DNA of 49,170 nt, from the NCBI RefSeq assembly GCF_000177675.1, contig NZ_ADGX01000059.1, forward strand, positions 1-49,170, in the 5' to 3' direction. The stretch's first letter is position 1. Every line of letters begins with the position of its first letter. This stretch comes from Parafrankia sp. EUN1f. GTDB taxonomy: Bacteria; Actinomycetota; Actinomycetes; Frankiales; Frankiaceae. Positions 1-16,683 of this stretch are shown one piece after another. The translations under genes and the position numbers were made by a program. The notes beneath the pieces were generated by a model, which was given only the letters and a program-made list of their open reading frames with translations, ran no database searches and was not told the DNA's origin.

Positions 1-122
1 CCGGCCGGGTCGCCGCGCGGCTGCCGGTCGAGCTGCCACCCGCCGGTTCCCGCCGTGAGCTGCTCGCGACGCCGGAGTTCGTCCGGCTGCGTGACGCCCT
101 GCTGGCCCACCTGGAGGGCTGA
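1..122 (+). CDS. ABC transporter ATP-binding protein, C-terminal fragment
   Basis: Only the last 39 codons are inside the window, read in the frame starting at base 3 and ending with TGA at 120-122. The residues (…RVAARLPVELPPAG… ending LLAHLEG) resemble the C-terminal tail of SsuB/TauB-type ATPases that energise import of sulfonates, nitrate or pyrimidine precursors. No Walker motifs are visible because the gene starts upstream. The permease gene begins one base after its stop, so the two are almost certainly co-transcribed. The assignment rests mainly on this context. Confidence 0.6.
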   Translation, partial: GRVAARLPVELPPAGSRRELLATPEFVRLRDALLAHLEG

Positions 123-123
123 C

Positions 124-900
124 GTGACCCGCCTCAAGGAGTCGCTGCGCCAGTACGGTCCGGCCGGCGTGATCGTTCTGGCCGTGCTCGGCGCGTGGAA
201 GCTGGCCACCTCCGTCTTCGGTGTCGAGGAGTACATCCTGCCGGCGCCGGACGAGGTGATCACCACCCTGATCGACCGCTGGGACCGCACCCTGTCCAGC
301 GCGACCTGGGTGACGCTCAAGGAGGTCGTCGTCGGCTTCGCCATCGCGGTGGCCGCCGGGCTGCTGATCGCCTGCGCGCTGCACTTCTCGGCGATCGCCC
401 GCCGCGCGATCTACCCGCTGCTGATCGGGTCGCAGACCATCCCGGTCGTGGTGATCGCGCCGATTCTCGCGATCATCTTCGGCTACTCGATCACTCCGAA
501 GCTCATCCTGGTCGCGCTGCTGTGCTTCTTCCCGATCGTCGTCGGCACGCTGGACGGGCTGGCGGCGGTCGACCCGCAGCTCACCCGGATGATGCGCACC
601 CTGTACGGCAACCGCTGGTCGATCTTCCTGCGGGTCGAGTTCCCGTCGGCGCTCCCCTCGATGTTCACCGGCCTGCGGCTGTCCGCGGCCTACGCGGCGA
701 CGGCCGCGGTGTTCGGCGAGTACTCCGGCTCCACGGACGGGCTCGGCCACGTGATGCGCCAGGCCGTCCCACAGCTGCAGAGCTCCCTCGTCTTCGCCGC
801 GATCACCCTGCTCACCGCGATGTCGGTGGCCCTGTTCGTCCTCGTCACCCTCCTGGAAAACGTCCTGGTCCCGTGGGCCAAGGAAGGCAAGAACAGATGA
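124..900 (+). CDS. ABC transporter permease, SsuC/TauC/ThiX type
   Basis: A 258-residue inner-membrane permease of the binding-protein-dependent family (BPD_transp_1). The GTG at 124 is chosen because it sits one base after the ATPase stop; an in-frame start at 55 would overlap that gene by 68 bases. About six hydrophobic segments are visible. The loop near residues 155-170, with E-x-P-x-A-L-P (VEFPSALPSMFTGLRLS), is the EAA-type site that docks the ATPase. It would form the translocation channel for the substrate delivered by the lipoprotein encoded next, whose ATG overlaps this gene's stop. The substrate cannot be told from the permease. Confidence 0.88.
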   Translation: MTRLKESLRQYGPAGVIVLAVLGAWKLATSVFGVEEYILPAPDEVITTLIDRWDRTLSSATWVTLKEVVVGFAIAVAAGLLIACALHFSAIARRAIYPLLIGSQTIPVVVIAPILAIIFGYSITPKLILVALLCFFPIVVGTLDGLAAVDPQLTRMMRTLYGNRWSIFLRVEFPSALPSMFTGLRLSAAYAATAAVFGEYSGSTDGLGHVMRQAVPQLQSSLVFAAITLLTAMSVALFVLVTLLENVLVPWAKEGKNR

Positions 901-1916
901 GAGCCAAGCGTTTGGCCGGCGGTGTGGCGGCTCTGCTCGCCGTCACCCTCCCGCTCGTCGCCTGCGGGAGCGATGACAGCTCCTCCGACGGCGAGGCACT
1001 GCGCAAGACGACGGTCCTGCTCGACTGGGACCCGAACCCCGACCACGTCGCGCTGTACACCGCCAAGGAGGCGGGCTACTTCGAGGACGCGGGCCTTGAT
1101 GTGACCTTCCAGCCGCCGTCCGACCCCTCGGACCCGACGAAGCTGGTCAGCACCGGGAAGATCGACATCGGCATCTCCTACGAGCCCGAGACGATCATCT
1201 CCGGCTCGCAGGGCCTGGACGTCGTGGCCGTCGGCGCGCTGATCCCGACGGCGCTGCTGTCGGTCATGGCGAACGGGGACTCGGAGGTCAAGTCCGTCGC
1301 CGACCTCGCCGGCCACACCATCGGCACGCCCGGCCTGCAGACCAACGACGCGTTCCTGAAGACGATCCTCGCCAGGAACAACATCGACCCGGCGTCGGTG
1401 AAGTCCGTCAACATCGGCCAGGACCTGATGGCGGCGATGGTCGCCGGCAACGTCGACGCGACGCTCGGCGCCTACCGCAACATCGAGGGCGTCATGATGA
1501 CCGACCAGGGCCTGAAGCCCACGATCATCCCGGTCACCGACGCGGGCGTGCCGGACTACGACGAGCTGGTCATCATCGCGCAGGCCAGCCGGCTGAAGTC
1601 GGACCCGGCCTACCAGAAGCTCATCCGTGACTTCCTGTCGGGGCTCGCCAGGGGCAACGCCGACGTGATCGCCGATCCGGCCGCGGCATCGGAGATCATC
1701 GCCGCCGAGGCCGAGGGCTACGACGAGGCGATGGTGCCGAAGATGATCGACGCCACCGTGCCGCTGCTGAAGAACGACAAGGGATTCGGCCAGCAGGACG
1801 TCTCCGACTGGCAGGCGTTCGCCGACTGGATGAAGTCCGAGGGGCTCATCGACAAGGCCGTCACCGCCTCGGACGTCGTCACGAACGACTACCTGCCGGC
1901 CGGCTCGGCCAGCTGA
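897..1916 (+). CDS. ABC transporter substrate-binding lipoprotein, THI5/NMT1-like
   Basis: A 339-residue exported lipoprotein. The signal peptide has a basic N-terminus (MRAKR), a hydrophobic core and the lipobox LVAC near residues 18-21. The mature start, with TVLLDWDPNPDHVALYTAKE followed by GYFEDAGLDV, is the hallmark of the NMT1/THI5-like receptor family. That family includes ThiY, which binds formylaminopyrimidine, as well as sulfonate and riboflavin receptors. It overlaps the permease by 4 bp. A pyrimidine- or pyridine-like ligand is plausible given the hydrolase genes downstream, but this is inference; the family also binds aliphatic ligands. Confidence 0.88.
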   Translation: MRAKRLAGGVAALLAVTLPLVACGSDDSSSDGEALRKTTVLLDWDPNPDHVALYTAKEAGYFEDAGLDVTFQPPSDPSDPTKLVSTGKIDIGISYEPETIISGSQGLDVVAVGALIPTALLSVMANGDSEVKSVADLAGHTIGTPGLQTNDAFLKTILARNNIDPASVKSVNIGQDLMAAMVAGNVDATLGAYRNIEGVMMTDQGLKPTIIPVTDAGVPDYDELVIIAQASRLKSDPAYQKLIRDFLSGLARGNADVIADPAAASEIIAAEAEGYDEAMVPKMIDATVPLLKNDKGFGQQDVSDWQAFADWMKSEGLIDKAVTASDVVTNDYLPAGSAS

Positions 1917-1921
1917 GGCGG

Positions 1922-1958
1922 CGGACGGGCCGGCCCGTCGACCGGGCCGGCCCGTCCG
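1922..1958 (+). terminator. Long GC hairpin after the binding-protein gene
   Basis: Bases 1923-1937 (GGACGGGCCGGCCCG) and 1943-1957 are perfect reverse complements around a 5-base loop, extended by a C-G pair at 1922/1958. The hairpin lies 6 bases after the lipoprotein stop. No T tract follows, so it could be a factor-assisted terminator, an attenuator or an mRNA-stabilising end that raises receptor levels over downstream genes. Confidence 0.6.
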
Positions 1959-1996
1959 ACCTCGACCAGCGTCAATCCAGGCCGCACCGAGCAAAT

Positions 1997-2038
1997 CCAG
2001 GCCGCGCCAACCCAGACCCAGGCCGCGCCAACCCAGAC
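1997..2038 (+). repeat. Two tandem 21-bp direct repeats, non-coding
   Basis: The 21-bp unit beginning CCAGGCCGCGCC occurs twice in a row, at 1997-2017 and 2018-2038. Partial copies containing AATCCAGGCCGC precede it. It lies between the transporter hairpin and the ribosome binding site of the next gene. No coding role is seen. Confidence 0.75.
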
Positions 2039-2108
2039 CGCCCCAGCCCCCCGCCCAGTCTCGGCCGGTGACCCTCGTCCGTCCCGCGATCGAAGGAGAT
2101 CCACCCCC

Positions 2109-3326
2109 ATGAGCACGCCCGCCGGAACGTCGGCAACAGCCCTCGCGGAGAAGGTCTCCGCGCAGATCCGCACCGACGAGCTCGTCGAGCTCGTCCAGCA
2201 GGTCTGCCGCATTCCCAGCGTGCTCGGCGAGGAGGGGGAGCTGGCCCGGTTCCTCGCGCAGACCATGAAGGAGCTCGACTTCGCGGCGGTCGACCTGCAG
2301 ACGGTGCTGCCGGACCGGCCGAACGCGGTCGGCGAGGTGTACTTCGGCCCGGGCCGGCGCGTGGTGCTCACCGGCCACCTGGACACCAAGCCCGTCGCCC
2401 ACGGCTGGACGGTGACCAGCCCGTTCTCCGGCGAGCTCCTCGACGGCAACGTCTACGGGCACGGGATCATGGACATGAAGGCGGCGCTGGTCTGCCAGAT
2501 CGTCGCGATCGCAGCGGTGCGGGCCAGCGGGCTGCCGGTCAGCGGCACGGTCGCGATGGCCGCCGTCTCCGACCACATGGGTGACCAGCTCGGCTCGATC
2601 GCCTACTTCGACGAGTACGCCGCCGACCTGTGCGTGCTCGGCGAGCTGTCCGACAACGAGATCTTCCTCGGCCACCGGGGACGGTACTACTTCGACATCA
2701 CGACCCGCGGCCGGACCGCGCACACCTGCCACAAGCCGCTCGCCGTCAACGCGAACATGCTCGCCGCGCACGCCGTGCTGGAACTGGACGCCTCCCGGCT
2801 CATCCCGTCGATCGAGGACTGGGTCGCCAACCTGTTCGGCCCGGAGACCTACATGGCACCCGGGCGGATCTACGGCGGGCTGCCACCCGGCGGCCCGTCG
2901 GCGATCCCGGACGAGTGCGTGATCCGGGTCGACTGCCGCCCGCAGCCCGGTGTCAGCGTCGAGGAGGTCCGCGCCGAGATCGACCGCTGCCTGGCCCGGG
3001 CACTCGCCCGTGAGCCGCGCTTCGCCGCCGACGTGGTGCTCGCCGACGTCAAGAACGGCTACCTGGCCGGCCCGGACGACGAGGTGGTGACGCTGATGAG
3101 CAGCGCGCTCGGCGCCGTGCGCGGCGGGGTGACGCCGAAACTGTCCGCCGCCGGCTGGCTCGGTGACACCGCGAGCTTCGGCCACAAGGTCCCCACCGTC
3201 ATCTTCGGGCCGGGCGGCGAGCCGGTGTACTGCCCCGACGAGCACCTGAGCGTTGACGACCTCGTCGAGGCGACCCGCGCCTACGCGACCTTCGTCGCGC
3301 TCGCGCTCGCGTCGGGGTCGGCGTGA
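2109..3326 (+). CDS. M20-family amidohydrolase/peptidase, ArgE/DapE-like, atypical active site
   Basis: A 405-residue cytoplasmic metallohydrolase of the M20 group, which cleaves N-acyl, N-carbamoyl or peptide amide bonds. ATG 2109 follows a strong ribosome binding site (GAAGGAG at 2092-2098). Metal-site motifs are present: GHLDTKP (near residue 94), GHGIMDMKAA, GELSD, RTAHT in the lid domain and PDEHLSVDDL near the C-terminus. The usual acidic pair of the catalytic centre (…DEE… after the third strand) is not seen; the aligned stretch reads VSDHMGDQLGS. The enzyme may therefore use a different base or have altered activity. Its stop overlaps the GTG of the B12-binding subunit, so it belongs to the same operon. 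The substrate is unknown; deformylation or deacylation of a ring-opened product is possible. Confidence 0.8.
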   Translation: MSTPAGTSATALAEKVSAQIRTDELVELVQQVCRIPSVLGEEGELARFLAQTMKELDFAAVDLQTVLPDRPNAVGEVYFGPGRRVVLTGHLDTKPVAHGWTVTSPFSGELLDGNVYGHGIMDMKAALVCQIVAIAAVRASGLPVSGTVAMAAVSDHMGDQLGSIAYFDEYAADLCVLGELSDNEIFLGHRGRYYFDITTRGRTAHTCHKPLAVNANMLAAHAVLELDASRLIPSIEDWVANLFGPETYMAPGRIYGGLPPGGPSAIPDECVIRVDCRPQPGVSVEEVRAEIDRCLARALAREPRFAADVVLADVKNGYLAGPDDEVVTLMSSALGAVRGGVTPKLSAAGWLGDTASFGHKVPTVIFGPGGEPVYCPDEHLSVDDLVEATRAYATFVALALASGSA

Positions 3327-3784
3327 GCGCAGCCGGGGCGGCGCCCGGCGGCCGGCCGGCGCGGGTGCTGCTCGCCAAGCCCGGCCTCGACGGCCACGAC
3401 CGGGGCATCAAGGTGATCGGCATGGCGCTGCGCGACGCGGGCGCCGAGGTGATCTACCTGGGGCTGCGCCGCTCCGTCACCGAGATCGTCGCCGCCGCGC
3501 GGGACGAGGACGCGGACGTCATCGGCATCTCGGTGCTCTCCGGCGCGCACCTCGCGCTGACCAGGGCGCTGCTCGCCGAACGGGACGCCGCCGGGCTCAC
3601 CGACATCCCCGTGACGGTCGGCGGCACGATCGGCGCGACGGACGCGGCGACCCTGCGCGAGCTGGGCGTCGCGGCGGTCCACGGCGTCGGCACGCCACTG
3701 CCGGAGGTCGTGGCGACGGTCCTAGGGCTCGCCGCGGCGACCAGGGAGCTCGCCGCGGCGACCAGGGCGGCGGTGGCCGGATGA
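3323..3784 (+). CDS. B12-binding small subunit of an acyl-CoA mutase
   Basis: A 153-residue cobalamin-binding subunit of the methylmalonyl-/isobutyryl-/hydroxyisobutyryl-CoA mutase family. The base-off signature D-x-H-x-x-G is DGHDRG at residues 23-28, with His25 the predicted cobalt ligand. S-x-L is at residues 70-72 (SVL), followed later by the VGGTI strand. GTG 3323 overlaps the preceding stop as GTGA, and its own TGA overlaps the ATG of the large subunit. This is the two-gene arrangement seen in Icm, Hcm and archaeal methylmalonyl-CoA mutases, not the single MutB polypeptide. The last 20 residues contain a duplicated LAAATR segment, which is probably a flexible tail. Confidence 0.93.
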   Translation: MSAAGAAPGGRPARVLLAKPGLDGHDRGIKVIGMALRDAGAEVIYLGLRRSVTEIVAAARDEDADVIGISVLSGAHLALTRALLAERDAAGLTDIPVTVGGTIGATDAATLRELGVAAVHGVGTPLPEVVATVLGLAAATRELAAATRAAVAG

Positions 3785-5403
3785 CCGCGCCGCGGCCCGA
3801 TCGCGAACAGGCGGGAGTGCTGCCTGCCCGCACCGACTCCGGCGTTCCCGTCCACCTGGTCTACGGGCAGGACGACCTCGCCCCCGGCCTGACCGAACGG
3901 CTCGGCCCGCCCGGCGGCGCCCCGTACACCCGGGGCCCGTACCCGACGATGTACCGGGAAAAGCTGTGGACGATGCGTCAGTACGCTGGCTTCGGGTCGG
4001 CCGAGGACGCCAACGCCCGCTACCGCTATCTGCTCTCCCAGGGCCAGACCGCGCTGTCGGTCGCCTTCGACCTGCCCACCCAGCTCGGCTACGACTCGAC
4101 GGACCCGATGGCCGAGGCCGAGGTGGGCCGGGTCGGGGTCGCCATCGACACCGCCGAGGACATGGTGCGGCTGTTCGACGGGCTGCCGCTGGGCGAGCTC
4201 TCGGTGAATCACACGATCAACGCGACCGCCCCGGTGATCCTCGCGTTCTTCCTGGTCGCGGCGGAACGCCAGGGCGTGCCGTTCGACCGGGTCGCCGGCA
4301 CGACGCAGAACGACCTGCTCAAGGAGTTCCTCGCCCGCAAGACCTACATCTATCCGCCGGCGGCGTCGCTGCGGCTCGTCGGTGACGTCGTCGCCTTCGC
4401 CGCCGAGCACCTGCCCCGGTTCAATCCGGTCTCCATCACCGGGTACCACGTCCGGGAGGCCGGCAGCGACGCGGTGCAGGAGCTGGGCCTGGCGCTCGCC
4501 TCCGCGATCGCCTATGCCGAGGAGATCACCCGCCGCGGCCTGCCGTTCGACCGCTTCGCCGGTCGGCTGTCCTTCCACTTCTCGGCCACCCTCGACCTGT
4601 TCGAGGAGGTGGCGAAGGTCCGGGCGGCGCGGCGGATGTGGCACCGGATCGCCACCGAACGGTTCGGCGCGACCCGGCCGGAGTCGGCCCGGATGCGCTT
4701 CTTCTCCGGCTGCTCCGGCACGGTCCTCACCGCCCAGCAGCCGCTGAACAACGTGGTCCGCTCGACGATCTCCTGCCTGGCGGCGGTGCTCGGCGGTGCC
4801 CAGTCGGTGCATGTGATGGGCTGGGACGAGGCGCTGGAGATTCCCAGCGAGGAGTCGGTGCGCCTGGCCCTGCGCACGCAGCAGATCGTCGCGCACGAGT
4901 CCGGGGTGACCCGCACCGTCGACCCGCTGGCCGGCTCCTACTACGTCGAGTCGCTCACCGACGAGCTGGAACAGCGCGCGTTCGCCCTGATCGAGCGGAT
5001 CGACGCCGGCGGCGGCATGGTAGCGATGCTGGCCGAGGGCATCCCGCAGCGCTGGGTCGCGAAGACGGCCTACCAGACCGAACGCGAGCTGGTGGACGGC
5101 ACCCGGGTCAAGGTCGGCGTGAACCGGTACACCGACGACGCGGACACCGACGCCGATCCGCGGCTGTTCGAGCCGGACCCGTCCGCCCAGGAACGCGCCC
5201 GCGACCGGCTGCGCGAGCACCTGCGCAACCGCGACGGCGCCGCCGCGGCGGCGGCCCTGGCCGGGCTGGCCGCGGTGCTGCGCTCGGACGCGAACGTGAT
5301 GCCCGCGCTGCTGGACTGCGCCCGTGCCGGCGCGACGATCGGCGAGATCAACGCCCTGATGCGGGCCGAGTTCGGCGAGTACCGGGAGCCGGCGCCATGG
5401 TGA
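3781..5403 (+). CDS. B12-dependent acyl-CoA mutase, large (catalytic) subunit
   Basis: A 540-residue TIM-barrel subunit without its own B12 domain. It catalyses a radical carbon-skeleton rearrangement of a CoA thioester together with the preceding small subunit. Aligning from memory with P. shermanii methylmalonyl-CoA mutase, residues equivalent to Arg87, Tyr89, Gln197, Arg207 and His244 are all kept (here Arg66, Tyr68, Gln176, Arg186, His223). Isobutyryl-CoA mutase has Phe and Gln at the Tyr89 and Arg207 positions, and hydroxyisobutyryl-CoA mutase has Ile at the first. The sequence therefore favours a carboxylated acyl-CoA such as methylmalonyl- or ethylmalonyl-CoA. No chaperone GTPase (MeaB) or epimerase lies nearby. 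ATG 3781 overlaps the upstream stop. Confidence 0.92.
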   Translation: MTAPRPDREQAGVLPARTDSGVPVHLVYGQDDLAPGLTERLGPPGGAPYTRGPYPTMYREKLWTMRQYAGFGSAEDANARYRYLLSQGQTALSVAFDLPTQLGYDSTDPMAEAEVGRVGVAIDTAEDMVRLFDGLPLGELSVNHTINATAPVILAFFLVAAERQGVPFDRVAGTTQNDLLKEFLARKTYIYPPAASLRLVGDVVAFAAEHLPRFNPVSITGYHVREAGSDAVQELGLALASAIAYAEEITRRGLPFDRFAGRLSFHFSATLDLFEEVAKVRAARRMWHRIATERFGATRPESARMRFFSGCSGTVLTAQQPLNNVVRSTISCLAAVLGGAQSVHVMGWDEALEIPSEESVRLALRTQQIVAHESGVTRTVDPLAGSYYVESLTDELEQRAFALIERIDAGGGMVAMLAEGIPQRWVAKTAYQTERELVDGTRVKVGVNRYTDDADTDADPRLFEPDPSAQERARDRLREHLRNRDGAAAAAALAGLAAVLRSDANVMPALLDCARAGATIGEINALMRAEFGEYREPAPW

Positions 5404-6737
5404 ACGGCGGTGTGCCGGACGGCGGTGTGCTGGACGGCGGTGTGCTGGACGGCGGTGTGCTGGACGGCGGTGTGCTGGGCGGCGGCGTCCCGGGCGGCGG
5501 TGTGCCGCCGCTCGCCGGGGTCCGGGTCGTCGACCTCACCCGGTTCGTCTCCGGCGCCTACACCACGATGATGCTCGCCGCGCTCGGCGCGGACGTCGTC
5601 AAGATCGAGCCACCGGACGGTGGCGACTCCTACCGGGCCCAGGCGACCGCCACCGTGGCCGACCGCTCCGCGCTGTTCCTCTCGCTGAACAACGGCAAGC
5701 GCAGCCTTGCCCTCGACCTGCGCGCGCCGTCCGGGCAGGCGGCACTGGAACGACTGCTCGCCGGCGCGGACGTGGTCGTCGAGAACGCCCGGCCGGGCGC
5801 GCTCGCCCGCTACGGGCTGGACGCCGCCGCGGTGCTCAGCCGGCACCCGCGGATCGTCTACGGATCGGTGTCCGGCTACGGGCAGACCGGCCCGGACGCC
5901 GCCCGCGGTGGCTTCGACCTGATCCTGCAGGCCGAGGCCGGCCTGATGAGCGTCACCGGGACAGCCGGGTCGGGACCGGTGAAGGTCGGCGCGCCGCTGC
6001 TCGACGTCGGCGCCGGCATCTGCTGCGTCACAGGGATCCTGGCCGGCCTGCTGCGCCGCGCCGGGACCGGCCGCGGGGGGCACGTCGCCTCGTCCCTGCT
6101 GGAGTTCGCGCTCGCGGGCCTGACCACCCCGGCCTCGGCGTTCTTCGCGGCGGGCGAGATCCCCTCGCGGCTGGGCACACACTCGCCGGCCTTCGCGCCC
6201 TACGGCGCGTTCCGCGCCCGCACCGGCGAGCTGGTCCTCGCCGGCGCGGGCAACGAGGGGCTGTGGCGGCGGCTGTGCTCGACGATCGGCATACCCGAGG
6301 CCGTCGACGATCCGGCGTTCGCCACCAACGCCGACCGGGTCCGCAACCGGGACGTGCTCACCGCCCGCATCGAGCAGGCGCTCGCCGCGGATGACGCGCC
6401 CGCCTGGGTGGCGCGGCTGGAGGCCGCCGGGGTACCGGCCGGCCTGGTCCGCGACGTCGGTGAGGCACTCACCTCGGCGCAGGCGGCGGCGATCGGCGCG
6501 GTGGCGACGGTCAGCGCCGGCGACGGCTCGCCCTACCAGGCGGTGACGGTGCCGGTACGGGCCCCCGGACCGCTGCCTTTCCCCTCCGGCGCGCCTGACC
6601 TCGGCCAGCACACCCGCGCGGTGCTGCGCGAGGCGGGGCTGAGCGACGCCGAGATCGACGAACTGCACGCCGCCGGCACGATCCTCGACGCCTCGATCCC
6701 GGCCGGGACGACCGGCGCGACCGGGGGTGGCGGGTGA
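5397..6737 (+). CDS. Class III CoA-transferase, CaiB/BaiF family
   Basis: A 446-residue enzyme that moves CoA between carboxylic acids through an aspartyl-CoA anhydride; Asp174 in GGFDLILQAEAG is the likely nucleophile. Family motifs are LAGVRVVDLTRF, MLAALGADVVKIE, FLSLNNGKRSLALDL, VVVENARPGA and SGYGQTGP. The start overlaps the mutase stop (ATGGTGA), so GTG 5400 is an alternative. Residues 3-37 are a degenerate five-residue repeat (GGVLD) placed before the first conserved strand. This part is absent from typical family members of about 380-410 residues. It probably makes the CoA ester fed to or received from the mutase. Confidence 0.9.
   Translation: MVNGGVPDGGVLDGGVLDGGVLDGGVLGGGVPGGGVPPLAGVRVVDLTRFVSGAYTTMMLAALGADVVKIEPPDGGDSYRAQATATVADRSALFLSLNNGKRSLALDLRAPSGQAALERLLAGADVVVENARPGALARYGLDAAAVLSRHPRIVYGSVSGYGQTGPDAARGGFDLILQAEAGLMSVTGTAGSGPVKVGAPLLDVGAGICCVTGILAGLLRRAGTGRGGHVASSLLEFALAGLTTPASAFFAAGEIPSRLGTHSPAFAPYGAFRARTGELVLAGAGNEGLWRRLCSTIGIPEAVDDPAFATNADRVRNRDVLTARIEQALAADDAPAWVARLEAAGVPAGLVRDVGEALTSAQAAAIGAVATVSAGDGSPYQAVTVPVRAPGPLPFPSGAPDLGQHTRAVLREAGLSDAEIDELHAAGTILDASIPAGTTGATGGGG
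5403..5507 (+). repeat. In-frame 15-bp tandem repeat, seven units
   Basis: Seven consecutive 15-bp units related to GACGGCGGTGTGCTG encode the GGVLD/GGVP repeats at the N-terminus of the CoA-transferase. The central four units are identical or nearly so, which suggests recent slippage. Confidence 0.92.
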
Positions 6738-8056
6738 GCGCCCACGGCACCGGGGCCGCCGCGCTCGGGCGCGCGGGCGACACGACGGAACAGCCGGCCG
6801 GTGTGCGCGAGGGGCTGGCCGGTGCGCCCGGGCTGCCGGCGGATGCGCCCGACCTGCTGTCCGGTGCGGCCGAGCGGGTGATCGTGCGGACGGAGCGGTT
6901 GTGCCTGCTGCCGGCTCCACCGTTCGGCGAGGCCGCGCGGGCGGCGGTCGTCGCCGACTGGTGGCGGGCGGACGGTCTCGCCGAGGTGCGCATCGACCCG
7001 ACCGGCAACGTGTGGGGGCTGGCCCGCCGCGGCGCGGGCCCGGCGGTGCTGGTCGCCGCCCACCTGGACACGGTGTTCGGCCCGGACGTCGAGCACGGTG
7101 CCCGCCGGCAGGACGGGCGGCTGGTCGGCCCCGGTGTCGGTGACGACACGATCGCCGTCGCCGCGCTCGCCGAGCTGCCCCGGCTGCTCGAAGCCGAGCT
7201 GGTGGGCGCCGCGCAGGCCCGTCCGGTGTGGGTGCTCGCGACGGTGGGTGAGGAGGGCGTCGGCAACCTGGCCGGCATCACCGCGGCGCTCGCGGATCCG
7301 CCGGCGCCGGTTGGAGCCGTGATCGCCGTCGAGGGCAACTATCTGGGCCGGGTGACCGTGACCGGAGTCGGCTCGGTTCGGTTCGCGGTGACGGTGACAG
7401 GACCGGGCGGGCACGCTTGGGAGCGGTCCGCGACACCGAGCGCGGTGCACGCGGCCGCGGAAATGGTTTCCCGGCTCGCCGCCCTGGCTGCGCCGCAGGC
7501 CGCCGAAGGCGCTGGCGTCGGTGGGCGGACCGCGGTGAACGTCGGGCGGATCTCCGGCGGGGAGGCGATCAACATCCGGGCGGCCAGCTGCCGTTTCGAG
7601 GTCGACCTGCGGGCCGACACCGCCGCCGGACTCGCCTGGCTGGAACGGCGGGCCCGGCCGGTCATCGAGGAGCCTGGCGCGGAGCTGGCCGTCGAGGCCA
7701 GGGAGATCGGCCGCCGGCCGGCCGGCGGGATCCCGGCCGAACACCCGCTGGCCGCGGCTGCCTTCGCCGCGCTGGCCCGCCGCGGGCTGGCGGCCCGGAC
7801 CCACGCCGCCAGCACCGACGCGAACGCCGCCTACGCCGCCGGCATCCCGGCGATAACCATCGGGATCACCCACGGCGAGCGCGAGCACACGATCGACGAA
7901 TGGATCGACCTGGCGCCGGTGGCGGACGGCCTCGCCGCTCTGGCTGACACCGCGGCGCGAGCCGCGGCCGTTGCTGACACCGCGGCGCAAGCCGCCGCCA
8001 TGGCTGACACCGCGGCGCAGGCCGCACGGACCGACGGGAGTGAGCGGGATGCGTAG
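6734..8056 (+). CDS. M20-family amidohydrolase/peptidase with complete active site
   Basis: A 440-residue M20 metallohydrolase, second in the locus but only distantly similar to the one at 2109. Motifs are complete: AAHLDTVF, GPGVGDDTIAVA, TVGEEGVGN with the catalytic Glu pair, AVEGNYLG, GPGGHAW in the dimerisation/lid domain and THGEREHTIDEW at the C-terminal metal site. GTG 6734 overlaps the CoA-transferase stop as GTGA. Residues 404-433 are three copies of a 10-residue unit beginning ADTAA, outside the catalytic fold. Likely chemistry is hydrolysis of an amide such as N-formyl, N-acetyl or N-carbamoyl; the substrate is not identifiable. Confidence 0.85.
   Translation: MSAHGTGAAALGRAGDTTEQPAGVREGLAGAPGLPADAPDLLSGAAERVIVRTERLCLLPAPPFGEAARAAVVADWWRADGLAEVRIDPTGNVWGLARRGAGPAVLVAAHLDTVFGPDVEHGARRQDGRLVGPGVGDDTIAVAALAELPRLLEAELVGAAQARPVWVLATVGEEGVGNLAGITAALADPPAPVGAVIAVEGNYLGRVTVTGVGSVRFAVTVTGPGGHAWERSATPSAVHAAAEMVSRLAALAAPQAAEGAGVGGRTAVNVGRISGGEAINIRAASCRFEVDLRADTAAGLAWLERRARPVIEEPGAELAVEAREIGRRPAGGIPAEHPLAAAAFAALARRGLAARTHAASTDANAAYAAGIPAITIGITHGEREHTIDEWIDLAPVADGLAALADTAARAAAVADTAAQAAAMADTAAQAARTDGSERDA
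7943..8032 (+). repeat. In-frame 30-bp tandem repeat, three units
   Basis: Three 30-bp units, each starting GCTGACACCGCGGCGC, begin at 7943, 7973 and 8003. They encode the repeated ADTAA-type tail of the second M20 protein. Confidence 0.92.
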
Positions 8057-9231: not shown

Positions 9232-9954
9232 ATGGCTGAGCGTTCGGCCCAGCCGGCCGACGAGACCCCGCACCGGCAGCTCAAGGACGTCGTCTACCTG
9301 CGCCTGAAGCAGGAGATCGTCGACCTGCGGCTGCCGCCGGGCTACCCGATGCGGGAGGCGGAGCTCGCCGGCCGGCTCGGGGTGAGCAAGACCCCGCTGC
9401 GCGAGGCGCTGGTGCGGCTGCAACGGGAGCGGCTCGTCGAGATCGTGCCCTACAAGGGCGCCGCCGTCTCCGGCTACGACCGGGACGACCTCAAGGAGAT
9501 CTACGAGCTGCGGGAGCTGCTGGAGGGCGCCTGCGCGCGCGAGGCCGCGGTGCACATCAGCGCCGCCGACCTCGCCGAGCTGACCAAGGTGGTCCGCACC
9601 AGTGAGCGGGCCTGGGCGGCGGGCGAGCTGGACGGGCTGCCCGAGCTGCTGGAGGCGTTCGACCGGGTCATCTACGGACAGACCCGTAACCGGCGGATCC
9701 GCGAGATGATCGAGAACCTCGGTGATCATCTGGTTCGGATCGGCAACCTCACCGTGGCGATCCCCGGGCGGCTGGAGGTCTCCGTCCGCCAGCACAGCGC
9801 GATCCACGAGGCGATCGTGCGCCGCGACCCGGGAGGCGCCGAGCGTCTCATGCGGGAGCACGTCACCAGCGTGATGGCCGACCAGCTCGCCGCCTTCGAC
9901 CCGGATGACCCGGGCGTGTGGACCGCGCGGGCGGCCCGGCGACCCGGCACGTAA
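9232..9954 (+). CDS. GntR-family transcriptional regulator, FCD type
   Basis: A 240-residue repressor-type regulator. The winged helix (about residues 16-80) contains LKDVVYLRLKQEIVDLRLPP, REAELAGRLGVSKTPLREAL and QRERLVEIVPYKGAAV. The C-terminal all-helical FCD ligand domain has IYELRELLEGACAREAA, DRVIYGQTRNRRI and the metal-site-like QHSAIHEAIVRRD. ATG 9232 is chosen because the family fold begins shortly after it; an in-frame ATG at 9112 would add 40 low-complexity residues and would cover the candidate operator. FCD regulators usually sense an organic-acid metabolite of the pathway they control, so this is the likely local regulator. Confidence 0.92.
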   Translation: MAERSAQPADETPHRQLKDVVYLRLKQEIVDLRLPPGYPMREAELAGRLGVSKTPLREALVRLQRERLVEIVPYKGAAVSGYDRDDLKEIYELRELLEGACAREAAVHISAADLAELTKVVRTSERAWAAGELDGLPELLEAFDRVIYGQTRNRRIREMIENLGDHLVRIGNLTVAIPGRLEVSVRQHSAIHEAIVRRDPGGAERLMREHVTSVMADQLAAFDPDDPGVWTARAARRPGT

Positions 9955-9997: not shown

Positions 9998-11389
9998 ATG
10001 TCCGAGCGCATCCTGATCCGTAACGGAACGGTGCTCACCCTCGACGACGCCGACACCGTCCACTTCGGCGGTGACGTCCTCATCGAGGGTGACCGGATCG
10101 CCGCGGTCGGCCCGACCGGATCGTTCGACGGCGCCGCCGTCGGCAGGGGTGGGGGTGGCGGCGGGGTCGAGGCGCCCGTGACCGTGCTGGACGCGACGGA
10201 CAAGCTGGTCATGCCCGGCCTCGTCGACCTGCACTACCACACGGCGATCGCGAAGGGCTACAGCGATCACCTGCCGCTGTGGGAGTACCTGGACACCTGC
10301 TGGTACCCGATCATCCGCGCGCTCGACCCGGAGGCGGCGTACTGGGCCGCGCTGGCCAGCTACGCGGAGTCGATCAAGGGCGGGGTGACCACCGTCAACG
10401 ACATGTACCGCCAGCTGGAGGCACTGTCGAAGGCCGCCTCCGAGATCGGCATCCGGGCGGTGCTGTCGAACGACGTGGCCGACGCCGAGCACAACCTCGA
10501 CACCCTCGAGGACAACCACCGCGCCTACACCGCCTGCCACGGCGCCGCCGACGGCCGGGTCGAGGTGTACATCGGGATCGAGTGGCTGCCGATCGCCTCC
10601 CGGGAGCTGCTGCGCGACACCCGGGCGCTCGCCGACCAGCTGGGCACCGGTATCCACATCCACCTCAACGAGTCCCTGTCCGAGGTGGAGAACTCGAAGG
10701 CCCGCTTCGGCCTCCGGCCGACCGAGGTCGCCTACGAGACGGGGATCCTCGGCCGCGACACGATCGCCGCGCACTGCGTGTGGCTGTCGGACACCGAGAT
10801 CGCGCTGATGCGGGAGACGAACACGCAGATCTCCCACAACCCGAGCTCGAACGCGAAGCTCGGCAACGGCATCGCCCGGCTGCCGGAGATGCTCGCCGCC
10901 GGGCTGAACGTCGGCCTCGGCCACGACGCGGCCGAGTGCAACAACAGCCGCGACATGTTCGAGGTGATGAAGTTCGCCTCGCTGATGCACCGGGCGAGCC
11001 GGGTCGACTCCAGCCTCGGCCAGGCGCCGGACGTCGTCCGGATGGCGACCCGCAACGGGGCGGCGGCGTTGGGGCACCAGACCGGGCAGCTGGTCGCGGG
11101 ACACAAGGCCGACGTCATCCTGGTTGACCTCAACAACACGATGTTCACGCCACGCAGGGCGAACGACGTCGCCCACCTGTATTCCCACCTCGTCTACTCG
11201 GCGAACGGCTCGTGTGTCGACACGACGATCATCGACGGCCGGGTGGTGATGGCCGGCCGCGAGTTGACGCTGGTCGACGAGGACCTGATCCTGCGTGAGT
11301 CGAACAAGGCATTCGCCCGGGTGCTGGCCCGGGTGGAGGACGCCGGCGCCGAGCTCGCGATCCCGCCCACCCCGTCGGCGGCGGCATGA
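9998..11389 (+). CDS. Amidohydrolase, ATZ/TRZ (deaminase/chlorohydrolase) type
   Basis: A 463-residue metal-dependent hydrolase of the subgroup with AtzA, TrzN, guanine deaminase and S-adenosylhomocysteine deaminase. These remove NH3 or another leaving group from N-heterocycles. Ligands visible are H79-x-H81 in GLVDLHYHTA, HIHLNES, AAHCVWL and the Asp in GLGHDAAECNN. The C-terminal beta-sandwich ends with KADVILVDL and IIDGRVVMAGRELTLVDED. ATG 9998 is preferred over GTG 9986 because GGTGG at 9985-9989 gives normal ribosome spacing. It overlaps the next gene by 4 bp. A polyglycine linker (residues 51-56) is coded by a G-rich run at 10146-10165. Confidence 0.88.
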   Translation: MSERILIRNGTVLTLDDADTVHFGGDVLIEGDRIAAVGPTGSFDGAAVGRGGGGGGVEAPVTVLDATDKLVMPGLVDLHYHTAIAKGYSDHLPLWEYLDTCWYPIIRALDPEAAYWAALASYAESIKGGVTTVNDMYRQLEALSKAASEIGIRAVLSNDVADAEHNLDTLEDNHRAYTACHGAADGRVEVYIGIEWLPIASRELLRDTRALADQLGTGIHIHLNESLSEVENSKARFGLRPTEVAYETGILGRDTIAAHCVWLSDTEIALMRETNTQISHNPSSNAKLGNGIARLPEMLAAGLNVGLGHDAAECNNSRDMFEVMKFASLMHRASRVDSSLGQAPDVVRMATRNGAAALGHQTGQLVAGHKADVILVDLNNTMFTPRRANDVAHLYSHLVYSANGSCVDTTIIDGRVVMAGRELTLVDEDLILRESNKAFARVLARVEDAGAELAIPPTPSAAA

Positions 11390-12414
11390 CCCCGGCCCCG
11401 GCTACAACCGCGCCTACGACTGCGGCTGGGCCTGTGGTGCCCGTGGCCACCGTCGCCAACGTCCTGGACCGGTGCCTGGCGGTTGGCCGGGGCGAGGAGG
11501 TCGTGCTCCTCACCGACGCGGAGACCGACCCGGCGGTGGTCGCCGCCCTCGCCGCCGGCATCGAGGAACGCGACGCGGTGTGCGTGATCGCCCGGGTGCC
11601 GCGTTACCAGGTGCCCGGCAGCGAGCCGCCGAGCTCGGTCGGGGCGCTGCTCGCCGAGGCCGCCGCGGCGATCGAGCTGACGTCGACGTTCATCGGGTCG
11701 TCGACGGCGCGCCAGGAGGCGTCCCGCGCCGGGACCCGTTACCTCGCGATGCCGGCCGTACGGGCCAGCACATTCCGCACTGGGGGCCCGCTGGACGTCG
11801 ACTTCGACGAGCTGCGCCGCACGGTCGAGGTGCTCGCCGCCGCCTGGGCGGGCGCCGACACCTACCGGATCACCAGCCCGGCCGGCACCGACATCACCGG
11901 CTCCGTGCGTGGGCGCGGCGGCCGGGCGCTGCACGGCATCGCCCGCGAGCCGGGCGCCTACATGGCGCCGCCGGATGTGGAGGCCGGCACCGCGCCAGTC
12001 GAGGGCAGCACCGACGGTGTCGTCGTCATCGACGCCGACCTGCTGTTCATGGGCGTCGGGCCACTGCCCTCCCCGGTCGCGCTCACGTTCCGTGGCGGCC
12101 AGCTGGTCGACATCGCGGGGGAGCAGGCCGGCCGGCTCACGGACATGATCGACCGGGTCGCCGACCCACGGATGTCGAACCTCGCGGAGGTGTCGGTCGG
12201 GCTGAACCCGAACGGCCGGGTGTGCGGGGTCGCGATGGAGACCGAGTCGACGCTGGGTACAGCACATATAGCCCTCGGTAACTCGATCGCGTACGGCGGG
12301 ACCGTCGCCGCCGCGGCCCACCTGGACTGCGTCCTCCGCGCCGCGACGCTGTACCTCGACGGACGTCCCGTCCTGGTGGAAGGGGCACTTGCCGATGACC
12401 TCGAAGTCGGCTGA
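11386..12414 (+). CDS. M29 aminopeptidase / NicX-like metal-dependent protein
   Basis: A 342-residue member of the superfamily (COG2309) containing aminopeptidase T/AmpS and the non-haem iron enzyme NicX (2,5-dihydroxypyridine 5,6-dioxygenase). The N-terminal half has GRGEEVVLLTDAETDP and IELTSTFIGSSTARQEA. The C-terminal metal-region residues are AEV (Glu268), GTAHIALGN (His294) and AAHLD (His312-x-Asp314). The spacing between His294 and His312 is shorter than I recall for M29 peptidases. Two heterocycle-type amidohydrolases flank it with overlapping ends, which suits a ring-cleaving dioxygenase or related hydrolase better than a peptidase. That functional choice is inference. Confidence 0.72.
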   Translation: MTPAPATTAPTTAAGPVVPVATVANVLDRCLAVGRGEEVVLLTDAETDPAVVAALAAGIEERDAVCVIARVPRYQVPGSEPPSSVGALLAEAAAAIELTSTFIGSSTARQEASRAGTRYLAMPAVRASTFRTGGPLDVDFDELRRTVEVLAAAWAGADTYRITSPAGTDITGSVRGRGGRALHGIAREPGAYMAPPDVEAGTAPVEGSTDGVVVIDADLLFMGVGPLPSPVALTFRGGQLVDIAGEQAGRLTDMIDRVADPRMSNLAEVSVGLNPNGRVCGVAMETESTLGTAHIALGNSIAYGGTVAAAAHLDCVLRAATLYLDGRPVLVEGALADDLEVG

Positions 12415-13999
12415 GCGGATCCTGGTCGTCGGCGACCCGGTGGTCGCGCTCGACGAGCAGACGCTGATCCCCGACGGAGCCGTCATCGTCGAGGGCTCCA
12501 CCATCGTCGCGGTGGGCCCGCGGGAGCAGCTGGCCGCCCGCGGCCCGTTCGACCGGGTGATCGGCTCCCGTGACCACCTCGTCATGCCCGGCTTCATCAA
12601 CTGCCACTACCACTCGGAGCTCGCCGCCGGCCCCGGCCTGTACCAGTTGATCTTCGAGCGGGCCAACGTCCACATTCACTCCTCCTACGGCCCGATGGAC
12701 GAGGAGGACCTGGCCACCGTCCTGCGCTGGGGGCTGGTCCAGGCGATCAAAGGCGGGCAGACCGGCGCCGTCGACATGTTCTACGGCCGCCCCGCCATGC
12801 CCGACTTCGGCGCCGAGGTCGCGCTCTCGGTGTACGACGAGATCGGGTTCCGGGTCGCGTTCGGCCTGGTCAGCCGGGACCAGAACACCTACGTCCACGA
12901 ACCGGACGAGGCCTTCCTCGCCCGGCTGCCAGCGGACCTCGCCACCCGGGTGCGCCAGTCGCCCATGGGCTACGCCTGGCCGGTCGACGACGTGATGGCC
13001 AGCTACGACCGGCTGGTCCGCCGCTGGGACGGCCGGGGCGACCGGATCCGGGTGCTGCTCGCGCCGGACTGGACGCCGGCCTGCTCGGACGATCTCTACC
13101 GCCGCTGCCGCGCCGCCGCCGACCACTACGGCACCGGGATCACCTCACACGTGCTGGAGACCCGCGCCGAGGCGCTGTGGAACGTCCGCACGCACGGCCG
13201 CCCCGCGCTGGAGCGGCTCGCCGACCTCGGGGTGCTCGGCCCGGACCTGGTCTGCGCGCACTTCGTCTGGGTGACCGACGACGAGCTGCGGATCTTCGCC
13301 GACTCCGGTGCGGTCGCCTCGAACAACCCCGGCTCGAACCTGCGGCTGTCGTCCGGTATCTGCCGGGCCAGGGACATCCTCGCCACCGGCGGGCGGCTCG
13401 CGTTCGGCACCGACGGGATCTCGTTCACCGACCGGGAGGACTTCTTCGCCGAGCTGCGACTGGCCACCATGCTGGCGCGCGACCCGCGGGTGTTCGACGA
13501 GATCCGCCTCGACTCGGCGGGCGTGCTGCGCGCGGCAGGGGAGAACGGCTCCCGGGCGCTGCGGATGGAGGGCCGGGTCGGCCGGCTCGCGCCCGGGACG
13601 TTCGCGGACCTGCTGGTCGTCGACACCCGGCGCATCCTGTTCCCGCCCGGCCGGTACGACTCCACCCCGGTGCTGGACGTCCTCGTCGACCGGGCGAGCG
13701 CCGCGGACATCGACACCGTGCTCATCCACGGCAAGGTGGTCATGGCGGGCGGCCGGGTCACCGTCGTCGACGAGGACGCGCTCGTGGACCGGCTCGCCGA
13801 GGTGGGGGAGCGGCGCCTGTACCGGCCGACCGCGGACGAGCGGCGCTGGGCGGCGCTGGGCGCCGAGGTCGAACCGTACGTCCTGGACTTCTACCGGCCC
13901 TGGTACGAGACGCGGCACGAACCGGCGTCGGTCTACAACGCCCGCCGCCTCCAGGCCCCGCCCGATCCGGTCCCGACCGAATCGAAATCGAATCGATGA
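12395..13999 (+). CDS. Amidohydrolase, ATZ/TRZ type, second copy with long C-terminus
   Basis: A 534-residue metal-dependent hydrolase related to the one at 9998. Ligand motifs are H71-x-H73 in GFINCHYHSE, SHVLETRAEA, CAHFVWV and FGTDGISFTDRED. It overlaps the NicX-like gene by 20 bp. ATG 12395 is preferred over TTG 12389 because GGAAGGGG lies 9 bases upstream. After the usual end (IHGKVVMAGGRVTVVDED) it carries about 70 extra residues rich in Tyr, Trp and Arg (…VLDFYRPWYETRHEP…), which most family members lack. It is likely a deaminase or amide hydrolase acting on an N-heterocycle or its open form; the exact substrate is unknown. Confidence 0.86.
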   Translation: MTSKSAERILVVGDPVVALDEQTLIPDGAVIVEGSTIVAVGPREQLAARGPFDRVIGSRDHLVMPGFINCHYHSELAAGPGLYQLIFERANVHIHSSYGPMDEEDLATVLRWGLVQAIKGGQTGAVDMFYGRPAMPDFGAEVALSVYDEIGFRVAFGLVSRDQNTYVHEPDEAFLARLPADLATRVRQSPMGYAWPVDDVMASYDRLVRRWDGRGDRIRVLLAPDWTPACSDDLYRRCRAAADHYGTGITSHVLETRAEALWNVRTHGRPALERLADLGVLGPDLVCAHFVWVTDDELRIFADSGAVASNNPGSNLRLSSGICRARDILATGGRLAFGTDGISFTDREDFFAELRLATMLARDPRVFDEIRLDSAGVLRAAGENGSRALRMEGRVGRLAPGTFADLLVVDTRRILFPPGRYDSTPVLDVLVDRASAADIDTVLIHGKVVMAGGRVTVVDEDALVDRLAEVGERRLYRPTADERRWAALGAEVEPYVLDFYRPWYETRHEPASVYNARRLQAPPDPVPTESKSNR

Positions 14000-14018: not shown

Positions 14019-15029
14019 ATGATCATCGACGCGCACACGCACATCCTGAGCCTGGCCGAGGACCACGAGTTCAACACGGACTACGGCCGTGAGGGCTCGC
14101 TGTGCATCTACCGCAGCCTCGGCAAGGTCCCCTCCCACCGGATGCCGACGGAGGAGGAGTGGGAGGACAGCGGGTACTCCCGGGCCGGCTGGCCGGTGAT
14201 CGGGCCGGCGGAGAGCATCAGGGACCATCCCGGCTTCGACAAGATGATCGTTCTCGGTGTCTCGCCGCAGTTCCTCGACGGCGAGCTGATCGGGACGGTG
14301 GACACCTACGGGATCACCGACGTGCCCGGACCGCCGAGCCCGGAGAAGTGCAACGACTACATCGCGGCGGTGGTCCGTTCCGACCCGGAGCGCTTCATCG
14401 GCTTCGCGTCGGTGAACCCGGCCTACCGGGGGCCCCGGGCGGCGGTCGCCGAGCTGCGGCGATCGGTCGAGGAGCTCGGGCTGTCCGGGGTGAAGCTCTA
14501 CCCGATGTACCAGCACTGGTCACCGCAGGACCGGGAGATCGCCTTCCCGGTCTTCGCCGCCGCGGCCGACCTCGGCATTCCGGTGATGGTCCACCAGGCG
14601 GGATCCACCCGTATCGACGCGCGGATGGACTTCGCGCGCCCGGCGATGCTCGACGACGTCGGCCGGGAGTTCCGCGACCTGCGTGTGATCATCGCGCACT
14701 GCGGGATTCCGTGGATCGACGAGGCGCTGTTCATGCTCACCAAGCACCCGAACTTCCACACCGATATCTCGTACCACATCGCCACCGTGACGGACGAGGA
14801 GTTCTATCGTTTCCTCATCCATTGCGAGCAGTTCTTCGTCCCGCTGGAGAAGCTTCTTTTCGGCAGCGACTACCCGGGATTTCTCTATGATCCGGTCAAA
14901 CTGAAGGACAAGGTCCTCGGCGTGAACGAACAGGCCGACCGGCTCGGGCTGCCGAGGATTCCGCAGGAGAAGCTGGACGGCATCATGGGCGACAACGCCG
15001 CCCGCCTGCTCGGCCTCCTCCAGGCCTGA
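14019..15029 (+). CDS. Amidohydrolase family 2 protein, ACMSD/decarboxylase-like
   Basis: A 336-residue TIM-barrel metalloenzyme of the Amidohydro_2 (COG2159) family. The family holds ACMSD, resorcylate and carboxyvanillate decarboxylases, and hydrolases or hydratases of ring-fission products. Ligands are H6-x-H8 (MIIDAHTH), VMVHQAG, VIIAHCGIPW and LLFGSDYPG. ATG 14019 is 19 bp after the preceding stop, with a purine-rich GGACGACGAG upstream. Its position at the end of the amidohydrolase group suggests it decarboxylates or hydrolyses a later pathway intermediate. The exact reaction is not predictable from the sequence. Confidence 0.85.
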   Translation: MIIDAHTHILSLAEDHEFNTDYGREGSLCIYRSLGKVPSHRMPTEEEWEDSGYSRAGWPVIGPAESIRDHPGFDKMIVLGVSPQFLDGELIGTVDTYGITDVPGPPSPEKCNDYIAAVVRSDPERFIGFASVNPAYRGPRAAVAELRRSVEELGLSGVKLYPMYQHWSPQDREIAFPVFAAAADLGIPVMVHQAGSTRIDARMDFARPAMLDDVGREFRDLRVIIAHCGIPWIDEALFMLTKHPNFHTDISYHIATVTDEEFYRFLIHCEQFFVPLEKLLFGSDYPGFLYDPVKLKDKVLGVNEQADRLGLPRIPQEKLDGIMGDNAARLLGLLQA

Positions 15030-15220
15030 CCGCCGTTCCTCCATCCGGCCTCACCTCACCCCGCGTGCGTCCGTCGCACGATCGAGGGTGTACTGGGCGT
15101 CGGTATATCACCGCCCGGGCCGCGATTCATCGGCCTGGCACCCGCGGGAGACATCGCTTTTACCGGATCCGCCACCCATCCGTATACGTCTCAACTGAGG
15201 ACCTGTGGCAGACTCCGGGT

Positions 15221-15238
15221 AGATAAGATCTGATATCT
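15221..15238. promoter_or_regulatory. AT-rich palindrome ahead of the GMC oxidoreductase
   Basis: AGATA (15221-15225) and TATCT (15234-15238) form an inverted repeat around AGATCTGA in the 256-bp gap before the GMC gene. It is the most AT-rich spot nearby and contains TAGATA and TAAGAT as possible -10 hexamers. No convincing -35 is seen. It could be a promoter with an overlapping operator. Confidence 0.35.
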
Positions 15239-15285
15239 CATGTTCAGGATTCCGTCAGGTCGGGACCCGAGGAAGGCCGCTCGCC

Positions 15286-16683
15286 ATGTCAGAGAAGACC
15301 CCGAAGGTCGTCATAGTCGGAGCAGGTTCCGCCGGGCTCATGCTCGCCGACGGAATAGCGGACCGCGCCGACGTCACGATCGTGGAGGGCGGGATCGACC
15401 CGGGCAGCCCGGCACCGCGCCAGATGCTCTACGACTACATCTTCCCGGCCAGCCTCGACTGGGGTTACCGGTCGACGGCGGGCGTTCCACTGCTGCGGGG
15501 CAAGGTCGTCGGCGGCTCCTCCTCGGTCAACTCCAGTGCCGGGGTGCGCGGCCAGCAGTGGGACTTCGACCCCTGGGGCGAGGGGTGGACCTGGGCCGAC
15601 TGCCTGCCCACGCTGCGGGCCAACGAGACCGACCTCCAGTTCGGCGATGCCGACTACCACGGCGACTCCGGCCCGATCGTGATGACGCGACTCAAGCCGG
15701 GTCCGATCGACGACGCGTTCACCGCCGCCTGCCTCGCCGCGGGCCACCCCGAGGCACCGGACCACAACGCCCCGGGCACGCTCGGCATCGGCCCCTGGCC
15801 GACGAACCGGGTCGACGAGGGCCGCTGGGGCACCCTGGCCGGTGTGATGCCGGGACTGCGCGGGCGGGTCACCCTGCTCGCAGAGACGACCGCGCACCGG
15901 GTGATCATCACCGGTGGACGGGCGCGCGGTGTGGCGGTCACCGGAGCCGGGGAGAGCGGCACCCGCGTCCTGCCGGCGGACGTCGTCGTGCTGTCCGCCG
16001 GGGCGTTCGGGACACCGGAGCTGCTCGTCTCCTCCGGGGTGGACCTGCCCGGTGTCGGCGAGCATCTGCAGGACCATCCGTGGGTGATGCTGAACGCCCT
16101 GGCCGACCCGGATCTGATCGCCGAGCGCCCGGTCAGTGGTTCGCTGCTGCGCTTCGGCCTCGGTGGCGACCCCCTCGAGGAGATCCAGGTCTTCCCGTTC
16201 TCCGCGCATCTCTACGACACGTCCCGGCCGGTGGGCGAGGTGTCGTTCGCCGTCGGGCTGATGGCCCCGCGCAGCCGCGGCTCCCTGCGGGTGACGCCGG
16301 AAGGGACCGCGATCGACCTGGGCCACCTCGTCGAGGAGATCGACCGTCGGAGCCTCGCCGAGGGCGTGCGCATCGCCGCGGACCTGCTCGACCGGGTCGC
16401 CGCGACCGGCATCGTCACGATTCCCGACAGCCCGTGGTGGCGCGCGGACGATCTGGAGGAGCAGCTCGTCGCCCGGGCGGAGACCTACAACCACCCGGTC
16501 GGCACCGCCCGGCTCGGGGATGACGACGACCCGACCGCCGTGGTCGACCGCCGCCTGCGGGTGCGCGGCGTCGACGGTCTGCTGGTCGCCGACGCCTCGG
16601 TGATGCCGGCGATCACCCGGGCGAACACCAATCTCGCCACCATGATGATCGGCCGCCGGGCCGCCGACCTGATCGAGCTCTGA
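15286..16683 (+). CDS. GMC-family FAD-dependent oxidoreductase
   Basis: A 465-residue flavoenzyme of the glucose-methanol-choline family, oxidising a primary or secondary alcohol (or similar group) to carbonyl. The ADP-binding motif VGAGSAG is at residues 11-17. GMC signature regions are LRGKVVGGSSSVNSSAGVRG and LSAGAFGTPELLVSSG. The active-site region is YNHPVGTARLG, with the first catalytic His in NHP, and the C-terminus is ADASVMPAITRANTNLATMM. It has its own upstream gap and ribosome site (GAGGAAGG before ATG 15286), so it may be transcribed apart from the preceding genes. It probably acts at an upper step of the same catabolic pathway. Confidence 0.9.
   Translation: MSEKTPKVVIVGAGSAGLMLADGIADRADVTIVEGGIDPGSPAPRQMLYDYIFPASLDWGYRSTAGVPLLRGKVVGGSSSVNSSAGVRGQQWDFDPWGEGWTWADCLPTLRANETDLQFGDADYHGDSGPIVMTRLKPGPIDDAFTAACLAAGHPEAPDHNAPGTLGIGPWPTNRVDEGRWGTLAGVMPGLRGRVTLLAETTAHRVIITGGRARGVAVTGAGESGTRVLPADVVVLSAGAFGTPELLVSSGVDLPGVGEHLQDHPWVMLNALADPDLIAERPVSGSLLRFGLGGDPLEEIQVFPFSAHLYDTSRPVGEVSFAVGLMAPRSRGSLRVTPEGTAIDLGHLVEEIDRRSLAEGVRIAADLLDRVAATGIVTIPDSPWWRADDLEEQLVARAETYNHPVGTARLGDDDDPTAVVDRRLRVRGVDGLLVADASVMPAITRANTNLATMMIGRRAADLIEL

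Follow-up and report, generated by a model that had tools for sequence, protein, structure and literature searches.

What does the run of catabolic genes that opens a contig of Parafrankia sp. EUN1f consume? The window, that is, the whole stretch of DNA analysed here, is contig NZ_ADGX01000059.1 (49,170 nucleotides). Its first 16,683 positions carry 14 genes, all on the forward (+) strand, which the original prediction had interpreted as a possible new catabolic pathway with B12 mutase chemistry for a nitrogen-containing heterocycle. Open reading frame coordinates and family profiles confirmed the place and family of all 14 genes, and the idea of a new pathway of this kind is supported by conserved linkage. 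The compound, which had not been named, is likely the pyrimidine of thiamine because a TenA-family gene and a ThiY-like importer are both present. At the level of sequence comparison the gene families, their linkage, the ThiY type of the importer and the linkage to TenA are well established, and we consider it quite probable that the locus is a cluster for the uptake and complete breakdown of thiamine pyrimidine, meaning 4-amino-5-hydroxymethyl-2-methylpyrimidine (HMP, with an amino group at C4, CH2OH at C5 and a methyl group at C2) and the degradation products FAMP and AmMP.

The importer points to this substrate. An ABC permease gene at 124-900 (BPD_transp_1 1.1e-25) precedes that of a solute-binding lipoprotein of the NMT1/THI5 family at 897-1916, whose best solved match is ThiY (3ix1, E=3.1e-44), followed by 4nmy and THI5, whereas the match to the sulfonate protein SsuA (2x26) reaches merely 2.9e-4. 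The lipoprotein thus stands closer to ThiY/THI5 than to SsuA and is likely a ThiY-like protein binding a thiamine pyrimidine precursor. The Nocardioides binding protein is likewise nearest to 3ix1 (3.9e-39), and that of Demequina matches 4nmy first and 3ix1 second.

The window is an entire contig whose start falls within the cluster. Its positions 3-834 match, at 100% identity, the end of a second contig from this genome, C378, which supplies the importer ATPase gene (84245-85030), just upstream of the permease. Divergent from this ATPase gene, C378 carries an aldehyde dehydrogenase (ALDH) gene and a TenA-family gene which overlap by 4 bp; the latter scores above the PF03070 cutoff and is the sole match to this family in the 9.35 Mb genome. 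A Rieske/VanA-type oxygenase gene lies after TenA (Rieske/VanA_C, L095 10630-11706, on C378), and in genome G019 TenA is likewise followed by a gene of about this length. The single locus of the original prediction stands as to its genes, but the window begins in mid-cluster and the GMC oxidoreductase gene is a separate unit, as judged from a 256 bp gap before it and from its inversion in one genus relative, Frankia sp. EI5c.

Is this gene set found together elsewhere? Within the genus, the gene of the M29-like protein (11386-12414) was present at ≥90% identity in three of six genomes, its own included (35 genomes of the family were searched). In both genus relatives with the cluster the run from permease to Amidohydro_2 gene is colinear, ALDH adjoins the ATPase and TenA comes after ALDH. 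All three cluster-bearing genomes (own included) and none of the three cluster-free genomes have TenA. In the wider family TenA was also found in genomes without an M29 orthologue, so TenA alone is no marker of the pathway.

A scan of the species-genome collection for the M29 family gave 25 loci across Actinomycetota, which is a lower bound because the scan relied on two exact 8-residue patterns. They include Frankia sp. EI5c, five Nocardioides, Acrocarpospora, Demequina, a Nakamurella bin and a Streptosporangiaceae bin, the rest being actinobacterial, Acidimicrobiia and unclassified bins; from the bin names we would guess that several come from sponges. By identity thresholds that we set ourselves, M20a (one of two M20-family proteins) was counted in 24 of the 25 loci, the B12 subunit, the mutase and the CoA-transferase in 23 each, the LLM enzyme in 21, M20b in 17, ATZ1 in 15, ALDH in 13, a zinc alcohol dehydrogenase (Zn-ADH) in 12 and an epimerase-like gene in eight, with GMC and MeaB in two each; one locus (L084) is just 3.2 kb long and several run past a contig end or the 10 kb flank. 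The set is thus conserved together in other actinomycetes, and the refuting condition named in the original prediction, a lack of such joint conservation, does not hold. Between distant actinobacterial lineages the core proteins are 45-75% identical (the close Frankia relative excepted) and their genes are still adjacent. In surveys which score few first-look candidates per genome, M29 was found at E≤1e-20 in 25 of 396 actinobacterial genomes, with more than 60% identity only in its own (100%) and in G194 (67%), and M20a at E≤1e-100 in its own genome alone among 296. A plasmid search with the Amidohydro_2 protein (AH2) returned 278 records, every one below 60% identity.

Linkage to TenA was examined in 22 of the 25 genomes (L078, L082 and L084 being excluded). 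In 11 of them M29 has TenA on its contig no more than 35 kb away, and 24 of the 25 TenA matches of these 11 genomes fall within that distance. Each of the five Nocardioides genomes has three to four TenA genes, all no farther than 35 kb from one cluster, and a TENA/THI-4 gene stands inside the Nocardioides and Nakamurella-like clusters. The catalytic Cys and Glu, aligned to 1tyh, are kept in 27 of 27 TenA rows (two genes entered twice), and with TIGR04306 (thiaminase II, 130 bits) the L073 copy scored 136.6 and the L077 copy 123.1. ATZ2, the second ATZ/TRZ amidohydrolase, adjoins TenA in other genomes. Among 245 genomes of the N. caldifontis family, M20a and M29 were both found only in the query genome and in G693, a held-out genome with the full core between 747.5 and 783.0 kb. 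These 35 kb also hold ATZ2, three TenA genes, a ThiY-like importer, AH2, an ALO-type FAD oxidase and ALDH, epimerase-like and rhodanese-like genes; G693 is, however, no independent lineage, since it is a near relative of the L070/L074 Nocardioides, with an ADH 96% identical to theirs.

The same importer and TenA could, on the other hand, serve thiamine salvage, with a YlmB-like M20 deformylase completing the recovery of HMP and the other genes being unrelated neighbours; YlmB is, we assume, of M20 type. A note to Table 1 of PMC10470507 is consistent with this assignment, as far as that note goes. Importer, TenA and an M20 protein are indeed the known trio of FAMP salvage in the excerpt available of PMC5627462, and the cluster shares a ThiY-type importer, TenA and an M20 protein with pyrimidine salvage in Bacillus and Paenibacillus (ThiXYZ, YlmB, TenA). 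To these it adds oxidoreductases, deaminases, a CoA-transferase and a B12 mutase, and oxidoreductase, CoA-transferase and mutase form a core that stays together as a conserved block. No thiamine kinase, thiamine synthase or ThiD is among the identified cluster genes, and an Rfam search of six sources (136,837 bases) found no TPP riboswitch above the gathering score. The genome of the window has ThiC, the metal site of M20a is altered, and three to four clustered TenA genes per Nocardioides genome exceed the needs of salvage. We therefore regard salvage as very unlikely.

Several observations weigh against thiamine pyrimidine as the substrate. TenA does not lie near M29 in 11 of the 22 genomes: it is on other contigs in six (Acrocarpospora G436 and bins G442 and G444-447), gives weak matches in four and is absent from one. 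A THI5-type binding protein was found in six of the 25 loci, or eight with extended flanks, and several Acidimicrobiia-type loci have other importers. Proteins of the THI5 and TenA families can serve other roles, and such importers usually work in salvage. AH2 is present in only seven of the 25 loci and ATZ2 in only three, and the Demequina locus, which carries an amidase, has no mutase, CoA-transferase or M20b. The missing riboswitch and the ThiC gene, which speak against salvage, count here as well; with ThiC the organism can also make the pyrimidine itself. In the Frankia TenA, Asn stands where B. subtilis TenA has Asp44 (a number we assume for that protein), so its substrate may differ.

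Alternatively, the core (M20a, M29, LLM, mutase and CoA-transferase) might degrade another N-heterocycle, with thiamine-type import and TenA funnelling a side substrate into it in some lineages. In Acidimicrobiia-type bins and in Acrocarpospora the core is present with no TenA nearby, and some of these have other importers. Linkage to TenA nevertheless recurs in Frankia, Nocardioides, Nakamurella-like genomes, Demequina and two further bins, and it may be hidden elsewhere by the fragmentation of metagenome-assembled genomes. In bin G444 an AH2-ATZ2-TenA group and a TenA-ATZ2 group lie on a contig apart from its core. Another heterocycle thus appears unlikely, and we know of no thymine, pyridine, pyridoxine or nicotinate pathway with TenA or a ThiY-type importer.

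Still another substrate might be an antimetabolite or an analogue of thiamine (bacimethrin or oxythiamine, for instance), which would be broken down or detoxified in place of the vitamin. The TenA class with Asn for Asp44 could suit an altered 4-position. No resistance or export gene is among the identified cluster genes, although no search was aimed at such genes, and the CoA/mutase end hints that the compound serves as carbon; we find this explanation extremely improbable. Two TenA classes can be distinguished, with QD..Y and with QN.. (Asp44 to Asn), and both are present in some genomes, which suggests different substrates for the two.

How, then, could thiamine pyrimidine be broken down completely? 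The reactions and their order, all of them, we infer from the gene families. The pyrimidine would be imported by the ThiY-type ABC importer, and TenA would release HMP from the aminopyrimidine or from thiamine. The 5-CH2OH group would next be oxidized to a 5-carboxylate by the GMC oxidoreductase (15286-16683, PF00732/PF05199), for which oxidation of the HMP alcohol is proposed, or by Zn-ADH in relatives, together with ALDH. This oxidation is suggested because ALDH pairs with either Zn-ADH or GMC and never with both: the 13 ALDH-bearing loci have Zn-ADH in 12 cases and GMC in one, and in the Frankia clusters, which have ALDH and GMC, the latter takes the place of the Zn-ADH found elsewhere. The 4-amino group could then be removed by ATZ1 (9998-11389, PF01979 5e-64), a putative aminopyrimidine deaminase whose metal residues are kept in 17 of 17 rows, and possibly by ATZ2 (12395-13999, PF01979 3e-42). 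The LLM-class oxidoreductase (8049-9062, PF00296) is of the F420-dependent, Mer-like type, although below the cutoffs of the Mer models of NCBIfam, and by this likeness it could reduce the C5=C6 bond. Ring opening might be the task of the M29-like protein, of AH2 and/or of M20a. AH2 (14019-15029, PF04909 4.4e-39) is a metal-dependent hydrolase or decarboxylase of the ACMSD superfamily, and all 11 rows retain its metal residues. That AH2 might instead decarboxylate the ring acid, in a reaction of isoorotate or ACMSD type, was also considered and is disfavoured, as the C3 unit left over would need no mutase.

The end of the proposed route is where the B12 chemistry would find its place. M20b would remove the acetyl group that stems from C2 and its methyl, acetyl being the type of substrate of ArgE/DapE-like M20 enzymes and the catalytic residues of M20b being kept. 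The leftover branched C4 diacid, a 2-substituted malonate, would be activated by the class III CoA-transferase (5400-6737, PF02515 5.4e-112), whose nearest named model is succinate--glutarate CoA-transferase (NF052585, 281 bits, below the 750-bit cutoff), and the mutase would rearrange the CoA ester to a linear C4 acyl-CoA. Ring atoms C4, C5 and C6 with the hydroxymethyl carbon form the skeleton of methylmalonate, which would explain the presence of both a CoA-transferase and a B12 mutase. A mutase end is also supported by the epimerase-like genes of eight loci (methylmalonyl-CoA type, scoring below the model cutoff), by MeaB in two and by a carboxylate Arg found in 24 of 24 mutases.

Which ester the mutase accepts can be approached through its residues. 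The B12-binding small subunit (3323-3784; PF02310, TIGR00640 above cutoff) and the large subunit (3781-5403; TIGR00641 above cutoff) are separate proteins, unlike those of methylmalonyl-CoA mutase (MCM), and 2-hydroxyisobutyryl-CoA mutase (HCM) presumably has the same two-subunit layout. HCM (4r3u) is the top PDB match of the large subunit with 507 bits and MCM the second with 442. The pocket, on the other hand, shares residues with MCM: in residue numbers that we take to apply, the carboxylate-binding Arg207, Gln197, Tyr243 and His244 are kept in 24 of 24 members, and the position of Tyr89 holds Tyr in 15 and Phe in nine. The Gln of HCM is replaced by this Arg (24/24) and its Ile by Tyr/Phe. 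The motifs HCQT and LHTN, common to human MCM and HCM, are however FSGC and VHVM in the cluster enzyme, and at 33 positions that are invariant in the family the residue is not that of two other mutases encoded in this genome. The substrate may be methylmalonyl-CoA itself or an analogue with an aminomethyl or acetamidomethyl group; a plain methylmalonyl-CoA mutase is conceivable, yet the pocket motifs differ. It is a tentative and rather doubtful suggestion that this would be the first genetically defined mineralisation of the thiamine pyrimidine ring, with a new mutase which converts (aminomethyl)- or (acetamidomethyl)malonyl-CoA to aspartyl- or N-acetylaspartyl-CoA and so brings the ring into aspartate. 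The genome has a second two-subunit acyl-CoA mutase (G000:C359:5327-9399, L026), 48% identical to that of the cluster and accompanied by LLM-like and CoA-transferase genes, possibly another mutase pathway.

The M29-like protein has no Pfam or NCBIfam match. It resembles NicX, the 2,5-dihydroxypyridine dioxygenase of nicotinate degradation, by phmmer (2.7e-8) and in its predicted fold (mean pLDDT 80.6), which VIA-align, with matches under Z 9 not used, scores at Z 29.1 against NicX and at Z 18-21 against M29 aminopeptidases. The conserved residues, set against what we take to be the M29 metal-ligand pattern, fit an M29-like metal site: across 42 sequences His312 and Asp314 never vary, and Glu268, Glu285 and His294 each show conservation of 90% or more. 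The iron ligands of NicX, given in the accessible part of PMC7910607 as His265, Ser302, His318 and Asp320, align with Glu268, Ala296, His312 and Asp314, so that two of four are kept. The original prediction had called this protein M29/NicX-like; its NicX fold holds, but with two of four iron ligands altered oxidative ring cleavage of the NicX type is not assumed as a core step, and no other nic gene is among those identified. A paralogue 30% identical to the M29-like protein lies at G000:C336:17274-18272 (L016), and further ones are in G019 and G021.

Two M20 amidohydrolases had also been proposed, and only one is a normal enzyme of this kind. M20b (6734-8056) has the canonical HxD, Asp, Glu-Glu, Glu and His residues, the Glu pair being present in all 19 rows and the last His in all 18 that extend to it. 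M20a (2109-3326) is ArgE/DapE-like by Pfam, NCBIfam and PDB alignment, but in each of the 22 rows that include the motif its Glu-Glu pair gives way to DHMG, and at the position of the last His all 25 rows have Tyr. M20b is missing from four Acidimicrobiia loci (L083, L085, L087 and L092).

Vitamin B6 and riboflavin catabolic clusters are examples of bacteria feeding on a vitamin, with a different ring and different enzymes, and soil bacteria that degrade thiamine were reportedly studied in the 1960s. Thiamine breakdown is also known in Burkholderia, where the excerpt of PMC4475313 describes a "unique thiamine degradation pathway" in which thiaminase I splits thiamine to thiazole alcohol, and in that excerpt there is no breakdown of the pyrimidine ring. 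Among the matches listed and in the open-licence literature we found neither a gene cluster for the catabolism of HMP or thiamine pyrimidine nor a characterised pathway with the same gene set. If the proposed breakdown of thiamine pyrimidine is true, it adds a pyrimidine pathway ending in B12 chemistry, and the part of the B1 cycle in which the vitamin is lost could be counted in metagenomes through this pyrimidine-consuming gene set. The mutase, the M29-like protein, the altered M20 and the F420 reductase possibly have new specificities.

The gene layout is compact. Tight GTGA/ATGA overlaps had been described along the cluster, and most hold: the overlap is 4 bp at each of the four junctions from M20a to M20b and between ATZ1 and M29, but it is longer between M20b and LLM (8 bp) and between M29 and ATZ2 (20 bp), and ATZ2 and AH2 are 19 bp apart. 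A GntR/FCD regulator (9232-9954; PF00392, PF07729) stands between the LLM and ATZ1 genes. In four bins (L088-L091, near 18150-20935) a Carboxyl_trans gene of the acyl-CoA carboxylase type adjoins ATZ1. Beside TenA, the Nocardioides loci L096/L097 and G693 have an ALO-type FAD oxidase, a second ALDH and rhodanese-like genes, and L096/L097 additionally an AMP ligase, a RidA-like gene and a molybdenum hydroxylase of the CoxMSL type; these genes may degrade the thiazole half of thiamine. Farther along the window a tRNA gene (Rfam RF00005) lies at 22844-22916 on the reverse (-) strand.

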